Assembly: GCA_017535435.1 (NCBI GenBank)
Contig: JAFXTY010000010.1
Span: forward strand, 1 to 46,126
Reading direction: 5' to 3'
DNA: 46,126 nucleotides
From: Spirochaetia bacterium
GTDB lineage: Bacteria; Spirochaetota; Spirochaetia; CADAEX01
Positions 27,497-32,064 of the stretch are shown piece after piece. Made by a program: the position numbers and the translations under genes. Below the pieces are notes generated by a model, which searched no databases, had not been told where the DNA came from, and was given only the letters and a program-made list of their open reading frames with translations. The first letter of the stretch is position 1. Every line of letters starts with the position of its first letter.

Positions 27497-27931
27497 TTAT
27501 ATTCTCTGCAACTCCTGGTCGTATGTCTTAAGTGGGACTGCCAGGCGGCGGGCGAGCTCAAGATAAGAGGCATCGTAGTAAGTAAGGCCGTTCTCCGAGG
27601 CCAGGTCAAAGATCCGCTGCCGTATCTCTCCGGTGCTCTGTATATCGGTTATGATTGGCAGCTGCTGCAGGTTGAACAGCAGGTCTCTTGCATCAGCTTT
27701 TGAGATAGGTATCTGCTTTGAGTTTCTTCTGCGGGTGCGGCAGAGCAGGGTGTTTCCAATCTCGTACCAGAAAAGCTGCGGCACATGAATCTGTCCGTTG
27801 TGTGTGATTATATATTCAATGTCATTCACGCAGTCCGAGAGCTCATCATCGCAGATTCCGTTAAGAAGATATGCTGCCATAAAAGAGGTGTCTGCCACAA
27901 AGCAGGGGAATGTGTCAGTATTTTCTTCCAT
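27497..27931 (-). CDS. PIN-domain toxin (VapC family)
   Basis: A 144-residue protein with the acidic residues of a PIN-type RNase: FVADTS (D14), WYEIGN, YYDASYLELA and TYDQEL. VapC toxins cut specific RNAs, often tRNA or rRNA. It overlaps the upstream antitoxin gene by 17 bp, the usual tight coupling. The target cannot be predicted. Confidence 0.88.
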   Translation of the reverse strand: MEENTDTFPCFVADTSFMAAYLLNGICDDELSDCVNDIEYIITHNGQIHVPQLFWYEIGNTLLCRTRRRNSKQIPISKADARDLLFNLQQLPIITDIQSTGEIRQRIFDLASENGLTYYDASYLELARRLAVPLKTYDQELQRI

Positions 27932-28199
27932 AATCCCTCATCTCCTTGATATCTGAAGCTGTAAGTGGAGCAATCCCTTTCTTCTCCATTTTGAAGGATA
28001 ATTCTGAGGATATCCTCATGATACGCCTGTGGGCTTCCATTGCTGCTGTGTTCTGTATTTTCTTCTCTCCCTGAAGCACTGCCACCTGCTTGCCGTTCTT
28101 TGATATGCGCACAGTTGTCCCCTCCTGCACTTTTCGGAGCAGTTCGGAGAAGTGGGTCTTTGCATCGAATGCACCGATATCGATTACTGCCAATGCCAT
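27915..28199 (-). CDS. Phd/YefM-type antitoxin
   Basis: About 94 residues. The N-terminal DNA-binding part is IDIGAFDAKTHFSELLRKVQEGTTVRISKNGKQVAVL, the Phd/YefM fold; the C-terminal part (EMRDYGRKY) would wrap the toxin. I set the start at 28199 because AGGAGG lies just upstream on that strand; the open frame extends to 28226 but without support. It should neutralise the toxin and repress the pair. Confidence 0.85.
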   Translation of the reverse strand: MALAVIDIGAFDAKTHFSELLRKVQEGTTVRISKNGKQVAVLQGEKKIQNTAAMEAHRRIMRISSELSFKMEKKGIAPLTASDIKEMRDYGRKY

Positions 28200-28368
28200 A
28201 TATGCCTCCTGTACATAAGATAACACAGCCTTTGGGAAAAATCAACCAGTTTTTAAACCAGTCTGATTAAGCTCCTCCAACCCAGGCGCATGGACTGCGG
28301 CAGTTGATATTAAGCAGATTTTGCAAGCTGAAGTGCCCACCGAAGATATTGATTTCTCCACCTCTGCG

Positions 28369-28512
28369 TTGTACCACAAACACTGCTATTGCACATTTGA
28401 AGCCATCAAAAGGCATGCCCGTCGATATTGCGGCCCGTAGGGAACGCACTTTATCGAGCGGGTGTGTCTTATTGCTGGCTATTATTGACTATCTTAAGTG
28501 TTTGTGGTACAA
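28369..28512. repeat. MITE-like element, copy B, with 16-bp perfect terminal inverted repeats
   Basis: TTGTACCACAAACACT (28369-28384) is the exact reverse complement of AGTGTTTGTGGTACAA (28497-28512). Read on the minus strand, the interior matches copy A at 22168-22303 in order (CAGCAATAAGACAC, GCTCG, CCCTACGGGCC, GCATGCCTTTTG). The right end contributes the -10 and part of the spacer of the T-box promoter. Short open frames in it are not convincing as genes. Confidence 0.65.
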
Positions 28513-28513
28513 A
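28485..28513 (+). promoter_or_regulatory. Promoter of the T-box transcript
   Basis: TTGACT (28485-28490), 17 bp, TACAAA (28508-28513). The expected start near 28520 is a few bases before T-box stem I, which fits well. The -35 context equals that at 8396-8407 (grpE). Confidence 0.65.
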
Positions 28514-28519
28514 AGCTAT

Positions 28520-28798
28520 ACATGCGTTGACGAAAATCCAGTAGGACGCTGATAACCTTCAAAGAGAGCTGCCGGACGGTGCGAGGCAGTGGAGGCCGGT
28601 GCTCTGAATTACCTTTCCGAGCAGCGCTTTGAAACACTGCCAAGGTGTAGTAGAAGTCGCCGGGTACGCCCGTTACAGCGCAAGGGTATGTCTGTACCTG
28701 ATAAGGCTCTTCCTGCGAAGGTGGGGCAAACAGAGGTGGTACCGCGGGAACTCTCGCCCTCTGTGTTTTCTTTTTGTAAACACCGGGATTACATTTTT
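28520..28798 (+). promoter_or_regulatory. T-box riboswitch controlling the acyl-CoA synthetase gene
   Basis: All parts of a T-box can be placed. Stem I base: 28524-28529 with 28622-28627. Loop-E/specifier side: AGTA 28540-28543 opposite GAATTACC 28606-28613. Upper stem: 28543-28551 with 28597-28605 (8 of 9 pairs). Then AGAGAG, and the distal stem CTGCC/GGCAG around GGACGGTGCGA. A stem II-type element is CGGG-TACG-CCCG followed by TTAC. Stem III: about 28705-28728. Antiterminator: ACAGAGG (28730-28736) with CCTCTGT (28758-28764), 7-nt bulge TGGTACC (28737-28743), and inner helix GCGGGA/TCTCGC. The bulge UGGU fits a tRNA ending ACCA. The competing hairpin is CCC..GTGTTT / AAACAC-C-GGG (28757-28787), followed by a short T-run. 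The codon is UUA if read directly after GAA; AUU and UAC are the other registers. Confidence 0.9.
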
Positions 28799-28810
28799 AG
28801 GAGCAATTTT

Positions 28811-30445
28811 ATGGTTATTACTGAGCTTCTTGAACGCAATTCAAGGCTGTATGGTGGAGAGTGTGCACTGGTTGAGATCAATCCGTCGGAGAGCAGGGAC
28901 AAGGCTGTCACATGGCGCGAGGCAAGCCTTATAGAGGGAACTCAGGATGCCCCATACCGCAGGGAGATGTCCTGGCGTTCCTTCGACCGCAGGGCAAACC
29001 GCTTTGCAAACCTTCTTTTAAGCCGTGGTCTCAAGCGAGGTACAAAGGTTGGTATTCTTATGATGAACTGCCTGGAATACCTTCCGATTTATTTCGGAAT
29101 CCTCAAGGCGGGCTGCATTGTGGTTCCTATGAACTTCCGCTACTCAAGCGAAGAGATTACCTACTGCCTTGACTTGGCTGATGTTGAGGTCTTAGTCTTC
29201 GGACCTGAGTTCATAGAGCGTATGGATGCAATCCAGAACCGGATTCCAAAGGTAAAATATCAGTTCTTTATTGGAAAGAACGGTCCTTCATATACCGAAA
29301 ACTTTTTTGACCTTATGCATTTCTTCTCGCCAGATGTACCTCCTGTGCTCTTCACAGAGGATGATTTGGCCGCCATCTACTTCTCATCCGGTACCACCGG
29401 GTTCCCTAAGGCCATCCTCCACAAGCACCGCTCCCTTATAAGCTCATGCATTGTGGAGCAGAAGCACCATGGCCAGACCCGGGACGATGTATTCCTTTGC
29501 ATTCCCCCGCTGTACCACACCGGTGCCAAGATGCACTGGTTCGGAAGCCTCCTTGCAGGAAGCCGGGCTGTGCTTCTTAAAGGTGTCAAGCCGGAGTGGA
29601 TTCTCCGCACTGTTACAGAAGAAAAATGCACCATAGTCTGGCTCCTTGTGCCATGGGCACAGGATATCCTGGATGCTATAGACTCAGGCCGCATCAAGCT
29701 GGAGCACTATATGCTGGACCAATGGCGACTTATGCACATAGGAGCACAGCCCGTGCCCCAGAGCCTTATCCAGCGGTGGCTCAAGGTGTTCCCTCATCAT
29801 CAGTACGACACCAACTACGGCCTTTCCGAATCCATCGGACCAGGCTGTGTCCACCTTGGAGTTGAGAATGTGAACAAGGTTGGCGCTATCGGCAAGGCCG
29901 GCTATATGTGGCAGACCAAGATTGTGGATGACAAGCACAACGAGGTTAAGCAGGGAGAGGTAGGGGAGCTTGCAGTAAAGGGCCCTGGCGTCATGGAATG
30001 CTACTACAAGAACCCTAAGGCCACTGCTGAATCCCTTGCTGATGGCTGGCTCTTCACCGGCGACATGGCCAAGGAGGATGAGGATGGCTTCATCTACCTT
30101 GTGGACCGGAAGAAGGATGTGATCATCACCGGAGGGGAGAACCTTTATCCGGTTGAGATTGAGAACTATCTCCGCAAATACGACAAGATCAAGGATGTGG
30201 CTGTCATCGGCTTCCCTGATCCACGGCTTGGAGAGATTGCAGGTGCCATCATCGAGATCAAGGAGGGAATGACCTGCACCGAGGATGAGATAAATGAGTT
30301 TGCCCAGGGGCTGCCACGGTACAAGAGACCTAAGAAGATAATCTTTGCCAAGGTGCCGCGGAATCCTACTGGAAAGATTGAGAAGCCCCTCTTACGCAAG
30401 ATGTACAGCACCACCAACCTGGTGGCAGAGGAGATCGGCGAATAA
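28811..30445 (+). CDS. Acyl-CoA synthetase (AMP-forming), T-box regulated
   Basis: A 544-residue class I adenylate-forming enzyme. P-loop YFSSGTTGFPKAILHKH, acyl-side YGLSES, GWLFTGDMAKEDEDGF and DRKKDVIITGGENLYPVEIE (hinge), and the catalytic lysine in NPTGKIEK. It activates a carboxylic acid to its CoA thioester; chain type is not readable. The start at 28811 is set by AGGAG at 28799-28803; the frame runs open to 28589, but that part is T-box RNA. T-box control implies a role in amino-acid supply, for example activating isovalerate, 2-methylbutyrate or isobutyrate for reductive carboxylation. folP starts 5 bp after its stop, so folP and cdaA may be in the same transcript. Confidence 0.88.
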   Translation: MVITELLERNSRLYGGECALVEINPSESRDKAVTWREASLIEGTQDAPYRREMSWRSFDRRANRFANLLLSRGLKRGTKVGILMMNCLEYLPIYFGILKAGCIVVPMNFRYSSEEITYCLDLADVEVLVFGPEFIERMDAIQNRIPKVKYQFFIGKNGPSYTENFFDLMHFFSPDVPPVLFTEDDLAAIYFSSGTTGFPKAILHKHRSLISSCIVEQKHHGQTRDDVFLCIPPLYHTGAKMHWFGSLLAGSRAVLLKGVKPEWILRTVTEEKCTIVWLLVPWAQDILDAIDSGRIKLEHYMLDQWRLMHIGAQPVPQSLIQRWLKVFPHHQYDTNYGLSESIGPGCVHLGVENVNKVGAIGKAGYMWQTKIVDDKHNEVKQGEVGELAVKGPGVMECYYKNPKATAESLADGWLFTGDMAKEDEDGFIYLVDRKKDVIITGGENLYPVEIENYLRKYDKIKDVAVIGFPDPRLGEIAGAIIEIKEGMTCTEDEINEFAQGLPRYKRPKKIIFAKVPRNPTGKIEKPLLRKMYSTTNLVAEEIGE

Positions 30446-30450
30446 CCAAT

Positions 30451-31269
30451 ATGGGCCTTATCTCCTCCCTACGCGAGAAAAATAAGATGCCCCTGGTAAT
30501 GGGAATTCTCAATGTCACACCAGACTCCTTCTATGCCCCAAGCAGGAAGGAGTCGGTTTCTTCAGCCCTTGAAGCTGCCCTGGCTATGGAGCAGAATGGG
30601 GCTGACATCATAGACATCGGAGCAGAGAGCACAAGGCCAGGTTTTGCCCCTGTGAGTGCCGAAGAGGAGATGGAACGCATAATCCCTGTTATAGAAGAGA
30701 TATGCAAGCACACTTCAATCCCTATTTCTGCAGATACCCGGAAAGGGAGTGTGGCAAAGGCTGCCCTGGATGCCGGTGCCCGCATTGTAAACGATATTTC
30801 CGCAGGTACTTACGATTTTTCAATAATTGAAATTGTAAAAAATTATAAATGTGATATTATATTAATGCACAGTCAGGAGAAGGCTCAGTATTCTGATGTG
30901 GTTTCAGAGGTCAGGGATTATCTTGTATCCCGGGTCGAGACCTTTAAGAAGGCTGGTGTTCAGGCCGATAAGATAACCCTGGATCCTGGCCTTGGCTTTG
31001 GAAAGGATACGGAGCACAACCTTGATCTGATGCGCCAGATGGAACAGCTTTCGGTACTGGGTTATCCGGTTCTCATAGGATGTTCCCGCAAACGTTTTGT
31101 AGGGGCAGTCACTGGTTCAGATGTGGAAGACCGGCTGGCCGGGACGTTGGCAGTAAATGCCTTTGCCGCAGCCCGTGGTGCAGCTGTGCTCAGGGTTCAT
31201 GATGTGAGGGAGACATCTGATATGGTTAAGATGCTCTTTGCCCTTGGAGATATTGCAGTCAGGAGGTGA
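30451..31269 (+). CDS. folP: Dihydropteroate synthase
   Basis: A 272-residue TIM-barrel enzyme joining pterin pyrophosphate and p-aminobenzoate in folate synthesis; the sulfonamide target. Signatures: MGILNVTPDSF, DIIDIGAESTRPG, NDISAG and DPGLGFGK, and near the end SRKRFVG and RVHDV. All catalytic blocks are intact. It begins 5 bp after the acyl-CoA synthetase and ends 3 bp before cdaA. Confidence 0.96.
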   Translation: MGLISSLREKNKMPLVMGILNVTPDSFYAPSRKESVSSALEAALAMEQNGADIIDIGAESTRPGFAPVSAEEEMERIIPVIEEICKHTSIPISADTRKGSVAKAALDAGARIVNDISAGTYDFSIIEIVKNYKCDIILMHSQEKAQYSDVVSEVRDYLVSRVETFKKAGVQADKITLDPGLGFGKDTEHNLDLMRQMEQLSVLGYPVLIGCSRKRFVGAVTGSDVEDRLAGTLAVNAFAAARGAAVLRVHDVRETSDMVKMLFALGDIAVRR

Positions 31270-31272
31270 CGA

Positions 31273-32064
31273 TTGGAAAGTTTTGTCTCTTTCTTCTCAA
31301 CCTATGTCAGGCCATTCCTGGATGTGGTTGTCCTTGCTTTTCTGATCTACCAGGTCTATAGGATACTTCTCCAGAACAATGCTCTCCCTGCCATCAAAGG
31401 TGTGGTGGCTGCAGCCGCTCTCTATGCCATAGCCTTTATCCTCAAGCTGGATACAATACTCTGGATCCTGAACAGGCTGGCTGGTGCCCTTATCATCATT
31501 GTAGTAATCATCTTCCAGTCCGAGATCCGGAACTTCTTCATCAAGGTTGGACAGAGCCGTTTCCTCCAGAGACGTCACAGGACAATCGGAACCGAGGTGG
31601 AGTCTGTTGTGAGTGCGGCAGAGATTCTCTCTTCCATGAAAAGGGGAGCTTTGGTTGTCTTCTCCCGCCAGACTGGACTTAAGAACATAATAGACACAGG
31701 AACAATCCTGAATGCTGATATATCTTCAAGCCTTATCGTGACAATATTCGGAAAGGATACAGCGCTCCACGACGGTGCTATAATCATATCTGGAAAAAAG
31801 ATTGTAGCTGCAGGCTGTTTCCTCCCGCTCTCCGAGCAGAAGGGTATCAGAAAGAGCTTTGGAACCAGACACAGAGCTGCCTTGGGAACTGCCGAGACCA
31901 CCGATGCAGTTGTCCTTATTGTCTCCGAGGAGACAGGAGCAATCTCGCTTGCTTACAACTCGAACCTCTATTACGAGCTTAAGCATGATGAGCTTTTGAG
32001 CACCCTGAACAACCTGGTGGTACTGGGACTTGCCCAGAGCGACAGTGGGGAGGATGAGGAATGA
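31273..32064 (+). CDS. cdaA: Diadenylate cyclase CdaA (c-di-AMP synthase)
   Basis: A 263-residue protein with three N-terminal membrane helices (to about residue 81) and a DAC domain whose motifs are LHDGAIII (DGA 167-169) and GTRHRAALG (RHR 199-201). It makes c-di-AMP, which controls potassium and osmotic balance. Start TTG at 31273 with AGGAGG at 31261-31266. It is followed, with a 4-bp overlap, by a CdaR/YbbR-like protein, the conserved cdaA-cdaR pair, but glmM is not in the window. Confidence 0.96.
   Translation: MESFVSFFSTYVRPFLDVVVLAFLIYQVYRILLQNNALPAIKGVVAAAALYAIAFILKLDTILWILNRLAGALIIIVVIIFQSEIRNFFIKVGQSRFLQRRHRTIGTEVESVVSAAEILSSMKRGALVVFSRQTGLKNIIDTGTILNADISSSLIVTIFGKDTALHDGAIIISGKKIVAAGCFLPLSEQKGIRKSFGTRHRAALGTAETTDAVVLIVSEETGAISLAYNSNLYYELKHDELLSTLNNLVVLGLAQSDSGEDEE

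Follow-up and report, generated by a model that had tools for sequence, protein, structure and literature searches.

Introduction

In the T-box family of riboswitches, genes are expressed when the cognate tRNA is uncharged, that is, when the amino acid is scarce. The locus described here raises the question of why such a leader should precede an acyl-CoA ligase, and why it should do so in a spirochaete. It was found in a stretch of 46,126 nucleotides (Spirochaetia bacterium, assembly GCA_017535435.1, contig JAFXTY010000010.1), which is called the window below. An earlier note had proposed a complete T-box in a spirochaete-like genome, in front of a lone CoA ligase, and had regarded both the phylum and the target as unusual. 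A survey of 2008 found no T-box in six spirochaete genomes (PMC2494555), and a survey of 2013 limited T-boxes to Firmicutes, Actinobacteria, Chloroflexi, Deinococcus/Thermus and Geobacter (PMC3766115). The reading that we hold to be probable is that a tyrosine T-box governs a ligase and a symporter that would supply tyrosine from aryl acids, and that the leader and the ligase were acquired together from gut Clostridia.

Identification of the T-box leader

A covariance search with the Rfam model RF00230 revealed a significant match over the full model (1-219) at positions 28518-28764 of the window, on the plus strand, with 101.9 bits (gathering score, 93 bits) and an E value of 1.8e-21. In the whole genome, of 1.70 Mb, exactly two T-boxes were found by this search: the window leader and a second one on contig C54 (1684-1936, 125.6 bits). 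The RF00230 alignment and the sequence placed the AGTA specifier-loop (loop E) motif at 28540-28543, the GGTG of the distal stem I loop at 28578-28581 and the GAA facing AGTA at 28606-28608, whereas stem III was recognized as a hairpin with covarying pairs at 28706-28727. The antiterminator, assigned by RF00230 and by the consensus fold, occupied positions 28730-28764, with the bulge TGGTACC at 28737-28743. The complete T-box that the earlier note had claimed was thus recovered, its elements lying where the note had placed them. As a riboswitch, it is a canonical T-box of the known family.

The 3′ part of the leader comprised a competing terminator-like hairpin (CCC-TCT-GTGTTT...AAACAC-C-GGG, 28757-28787) and a U-run (28794-28798). 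The 5′ arm of this hairpin overlaps the 3′ arm of the antiterminator, and its stem was preserved within the genus despite a variable loop. Nevertheless, this terminator is weak and makes the expression platform the least secure step in the window, with six bases separating the hairpin from the UUUUU, and a consensus terminator scan detected no terminator at 28757-28798. In contrast, the leader of the symporter on C54 carried a strong terminator (CGCCCTC/GGGGGCG followed by T9). Regarding translational control through masking of the SD sequence, inspection by eye found no convincing anti-SD complement in the window leader. Upstream of the T-box, a promoter-like TTGACT (28485-28490), separated by 17 bases from TACAAA (28508-28513), was tentatively read from the sequence; a TTGAC was equally placed in related leaders, and a stricter consensus scan returned no promoter in this region. 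It was also noticed that the program-made open reading frame at 28589-30445 (618 aa) opens at a GTG (28589) inside the riboswitch, and such a GTG start may hide the leader in automatic annotation. The true start of the ligase is likely the ATG at 28811, which follows an AGGAG.

The same leader was sought in relatives, and each of the seven genus genomes has it, in alignable form, in front of this ligase. All seven carried T-boxes, six of them both, and the T-box core and the antiterminator were invariant within the genus while other parts of the leader varied. When 13 clostridial-type orthologue leaders and one labelled Chloroflexi were added to the genus leaders, a de novo consensus fold (RNAalifold, 20 related leaders) yielded stem I, stem III and the antiterminator, confirming conservation of the stems, and in 28 of the 43 predicted pairs, including pairs of stem I, at least one sequence had both sides changed with the pair kept. 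The folding energy of single sequences showed no excess stability over shuffles (z of -0.6 and -0.68), and the case for the T-box is therefore comparative rather than energetic.

Specifier codon and cognate tRNA

On its right side, the specifier loop of the window leader has the sequence GAA-U-UAC-C. Two registers agree on the codon UAC (28610-28612), the first placing it one base after GAA and the second placing its end six bases before the conserved GAG. As a control, the second rule was applied to 24 spirochaete thrS leaders, of which four had their thrS identity confirmed by TIGR00418, and it returned ACC (Thr) in 24 of 24. Two alternative registers, giving UUA (Leu) or ACC (Thr), were rejected, as they would render the orthologous leaders inconsistent, giving for instance UCC in the leaders that otherwise read UUC, and as they are also contradicted by this fixed GAG spacing, which gives UAC here. 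The genome encodes a tRNA-Tyr (L168, 1582-1665) whose anticodon is GUA and whose discriminator base is A73, and the variable U of the bulge UGGUACC is offered to this A73. The base that follows the specifier counts against this assignment, being C and not the usual purine. However, UAC was kept in the window-type leader of all seven genus genomes, the specifier was UAC or UUC in all T-box-bearing orthologues, and the T-box on C54, placed before a sodium:solute symporter, reads GAA-UAC-A, also corresponding to Tyr. Judged from its sequence, the T-box of the window, for which the earlier note had given no amino acid, is specific for tyrosine.

The ligase and its neighbours in the window

As the earlier note had stated, the gene downstream of the T-box encodes a CoA ligase, in this case an AMP-forming acyl-CoA ligase of 544 aa (28811-30445, plus strand; PF00501/PF13193), for which the clostridial context suggests an arylacetate-CoA ligase. 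Its best NCBIfam model was NF004837, with 413.6 bits, below the cut-off of 476; no NCBIfam equivalog was found at cut-off, so that the assignment of its substrate rests on context. The closest named models were generic long-chain acyl-CoA ligases, and the PDB matches included FadD5/FadD13 and feruloyl- and 4-coumarate-CoA ligases.

Five bases past the ligase lies folP, encoding dihydropteroate synthase (30451-31269, plus strand; TIGR01496 above cut-off), which is probably co-transcribed with it, followed by cdaA, encoding diadenylate cyclase (31273-32064, plus strand; TIGR00159 above cut-off). An arrangement of ligase, folP and cdaA with the 5-base gap was observed in several members of the genus, and tyrosine starvation could also affect these folate and c-di-AMP genes. 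The description of the ligase as a lone gene applies to the genus genome G005, where it stands alone with its own terminator, apart from folP-cdaA, but not to the window. The identity of cdaA was 93-97% in four genus genomes, 69% in G005 and 56-59% in the sister genus, so that a gene on the same contig tracks spirochaete kinship; the genome is that of a spirochaete, as the earlier note had held. Just upstream of the leader, on the minus strand (27497-28226), there is a pair formed by a PIN-domain toxin and a Phd/YefM-like antitoxin.

Clostridial orthologues and their operons

Beyond the genus, the nearest relatives of the ligase, 70-78% identical, were found in gut Oscillospiraceae and other Clostridia. 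A cultured, T-box-bearing relative is Angelakisella massiliensis (L053). Among 78 non-spirochaete orthologue loci, a T-box was present directly upstream of the ligase in 18, with Tyr (UAC) as specifier in 14, Phe (UUC) in four and no other codon, and the remaining 60 had no T-box in the region examined. An Rfam scan of 16 loci indicated that the T-boxes upstream of the ligase mainly reach the gathering score, all but two of them doing so; in the locus L112, the gathering-level match was a second T-box and not that of the ligase. The gene iorA, for an indolepyruvate-type ferredoxin oxidoreductase (IOR), was found beside the ligase in 37/78 loci and the symporter in 32/78, counts that include several loci cut by contig ends. 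In L096, the order was T-box(Tyr)-symporter-ligase-iorA-iorB-paaK. In L112, a Tyr T-box preceded the ligase and the symporter, and a separate Phe T-box was placed right before iorA. HMMs confirmed the families of these operons: iorA scored 700 bits, exceeding its cut-off, and iorB, a PaaK-like ligase and an SSS symporter were likewise recognized. Since operons of ligase, symporter, iorAB and paaK occur in Clostridia under the same T-box, this target is less unusual than was first thought, and an amino-acid-supply regulon is indicated.

Parts of the proposed pathway in the spirochaete genus

The genome of the window holds the same parts dispersed, with the ligase in the window, the symporter on C54, iorAB on C53 and a PaaK-like ligase on C16. 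The symporter is 59-64% identical to its clostridial counterpart and has a Tyr T-box in six of the seven genus genomes. On C53, iorAB is adjoined by an aminotransferase gene and has no T-box, and on C16 the PaaK-like ligase is followed by a small ACT-like protein. Genes of the iorA-like and PaaK-like types were each found in 7/7 genus genomes. The iorA of the window genome lies far from the ligase, is ~40% identical to the copy in the clostridial operons, and scored 517 bits against the cut-off of 650.9 of TIGR03336, with ~50 C-terminal profile positions missing.

The gene aroC, for chorismate synthase, was present in all seven genus genomes; in six of them, the enzyme was observed to be without ~27 profile positions (155-183; L193, 1576-2562, and equivalents), being of full length only in G005. 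Prephenate dehydrogenase was found in none of the six clean genus genomes and was present only in the genome with 7% contamination. Prephenate dehydratase was detected in four of the seven, including the genome of the window (G000), and phenylalanine may therefore be made de novo there. As the dehydrogenase is absent and the dehydratase present, tyrosine could not be made from prephenate, in keeping with a specifier for Tyr rather than for Phe.

Proposed mechanism and alternative explanations

From the leader we infer a response to tRNA and control by attenuation. Uncharged tRNA-Tyr (GUA, A73) would pair through its anticodon with the UAC specifier and through its terminal ACCA with UGGU in the bulge, and this pairing would hold the antiterminator and let transcription reach the ligase, while with charged tRNA the competing hairpin would form. 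Switched on in tyrosine shortage, the ligase and the symporter should therefore supply tyrosine. With respect to substrate, direction and flux, we infer that the symporter, under the second Tyr T-box on another contig, would take up aryl acids, that the ligase would convert them into CoA thioesters, most likely that of 4-hydroxyphenylacetate and perhaps that of phenylacetate, that the oxidoreductase encoded by iorAB would carry out reductive carboxylation to the arylpyruvate, and that the aminotransferase adjoining iorAB would produce tyrosine. In this way, the route would make up for the missing prephenate dehydrogenase. On enzymatic grounds, a study published in 2026 on the fermentation of tyrosine by clostridia argued that IOR next to an AMP-forming arylacetate-CoA ligase may be biosynthetic in Bacteroides (PMC13285125); from the regulatory side, the T-box speaks independently for this anabolic direction.

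Other explanations must be weighed against this proposal. The T-box could be functional and tyrosine-specific while the ligase acts on another acid (a fatty acid, phenylpropionate or coumarate), serving lipids or another aromatic route, as the generic long-chain models and the matches to FadD5/FadD13 and to feruloyl- and 4-coumarate-CoA ligases would allow; however, the neighbourhood of iorAB, paaK and the symporter, the restriction of specifiers to aromatic amino acids and the Phe T-box before iorA in L112 make such a substrate unlikely. We regard as quite improbable that the ligase and iorAB act oxidatively, with Tyr and Phe fermented to aryl acids and the T-box doing nothing beyond releasing a brake upon starvation. 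T-boxes act at amino-acid scarcity, which would be the wrong time for degradation, and the prephenate dehydrogenase route to tyrosine is absent. It is true that Pyrococcus furiosus uses IOR in fermentation and that clostridia ferment tyrosine via 4-hydroxyphenylacetate, but the oxidative enzymes of C. difficile and of C. scatologenes are accompanied by kinase/phosphotransacylase or ADP-forming ligase pairs. The ligase of the window, in contrast, is AMP-forming, which favours activation (PMC13285125).

It may also be asked whether the leader is a decaying relic of a transferred operon that regulates little in its spirochaete host, considering its weak terminator, the displaced U-run and the joining of the ligase to folP-cdaA, genes for which control by tyrosine would be unexpected. 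This is very improbable given a core and an antiterminator that are invariant in the genus, a specifier that stays UAC throughout it, paired changes that are kept, and a sister symporter leader with a strong terminator.

Origin and probable transfer

In the ligase tree, the genus formed a clade (support 100) nested among clostridial ligases, many of them T-box-bearing, and in the leader tree the window leader clustered with the clostridial ligase leaders. Because both trees place them among clostridial ones, the leader and the ligase most likely moved together from Clostridia, as far as sequence relationships indicate. An origin from a native thrS T-box was ruled out by the leader tree, in which the thrS leaders stood apart (99/99). 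Chimerism of the metagenome-assembled genome (MAG) is unlikely, since the ligase-leader pair occurs in seven genus genomes and again in MAG records of independent origin (yak reticulum, horse faeces), and since cdaA on the same contig follows the spirochaete relationships. The same ligase was separately acquired, without a T-box, by another spirochaete family (f3, L135-L145), whose copies fall among those of Lachnospiraceae in the ligase tree; in L141, iorA lies beside the ligase.

T-boxes across Spirochaetota

No literature on spirochaete T-boxes, or on a T-box combined with an indolepyruvate oxidoreductase, was found, although an earlier database listing is possible; the phylum and the target pathway thus look new in the searchable literature. 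The remark of the earlier note that it knew of no described spirochaete T-box agrees with this search, but the window leader is not isolated, as RF00230 matches were obtained in 72 of 393 spirochaete genomes, belonging to 41 of 168 genera. Of the 77 T-box places in the phylum, 76 were examined. In 61 of them (L016-L018, L020-L040 and most of L199-L238) thrS was downstream and the specifier was ACC, while the ligase/symporter-type module of the window accounted for seven. Four places, in two genomes (G386 and G232), had a T-box before XRE-cupin-acyl-CoA-ligase fusions (L196, 2150-7999; L198, 235-6625; L195, 7674-10239; L197, 5658-8199). Two of these fusions presented AUC (Ile) and were followed by a nitrilase-like gene, ilvE and vorB, and the other two presented GUC (Val). 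By analogy, the Ile loci with ilvE and vorB look like a T-box-controlled salvage of branched acids, and the Ile/Val T-boxes accompanied by VOR would repeat the logic of the window for such acids. A single place, in the sister genus (G301; L130, 4131-5923), had a UAC T-box before a tyrosine phenol-lyase/tryptophanase-like gene, through which tyrosine would perhaps be made from phenol. The last three (L202, L213, L233), read by eye, preceded an ABC substrate-binding protein (trpX-like), a trpB-like gene and an aminotransferase.

We lean towards a general salvage regulon of anaerobic gut and sediment bacteria, in which the specifier would name the amino acid that is regenerated from a scavenged acid, through activation with CoA and a ferredoxin-dependent reductive carboxylation (iorAB for Tyr/Phe, vor for Ile/Val), present in Clostridia and Spirochaetota and moved between phyla with its leaders. 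T-boxes had been regarded as confined to a few phyla, and here they are widespread in Spirochaetota, including a probable transfer of leader and gene across phyla. The specifier codon also provides a sequence-level prediction of the product for an otherwise generic CoA ligase, and starvation-induced T-boxes predict the direction of IOR/VOR in gut anaerobes, a live issue in aromatic acid metabolism (PMC13285125). The main interest lies in the phylum, in the transfer together with the gene and, above all, in a regulon that predicts substrate and direction from a codon.

Comparison with known systems

The window leader resembles the transcriptional Tyr/Phe T-boxes of Firmicutes in its complete architecture, AGTA/GAA motif, GGTG loop, UGGUACC bulge, UAC specifier and an antiterminator overlapping a hairpin. 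It differs from them in its spirochaete host and weak terminator, and in the fact that they target tyrS, a shikimate-pathway gene or a known Tyr transporter, whereas here a CoA ligase and a symporter are controlled. The thrS T-boxes of Spirochaetota belong to the same RNA family and phylum, but they differ in specifier, in their synthetase target and in forming a separate leader clade, and they are not the source of the window leader. An aryl-acid route to aromatic amino acids in rumen bacteria was reportedly described by Allison. The anabolic IOR aryl-acid route of methanogens, also proposed for Bacteroides (PMC13285125), is alike in combining an AMP-forming arylacetate-CoA ligase with IOR. 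In contrast to that route, the main ligase here is of the PRK06187 type, beside a separate PaaK type, and a T-box names the product amino acid, which supports the anabolic direction.
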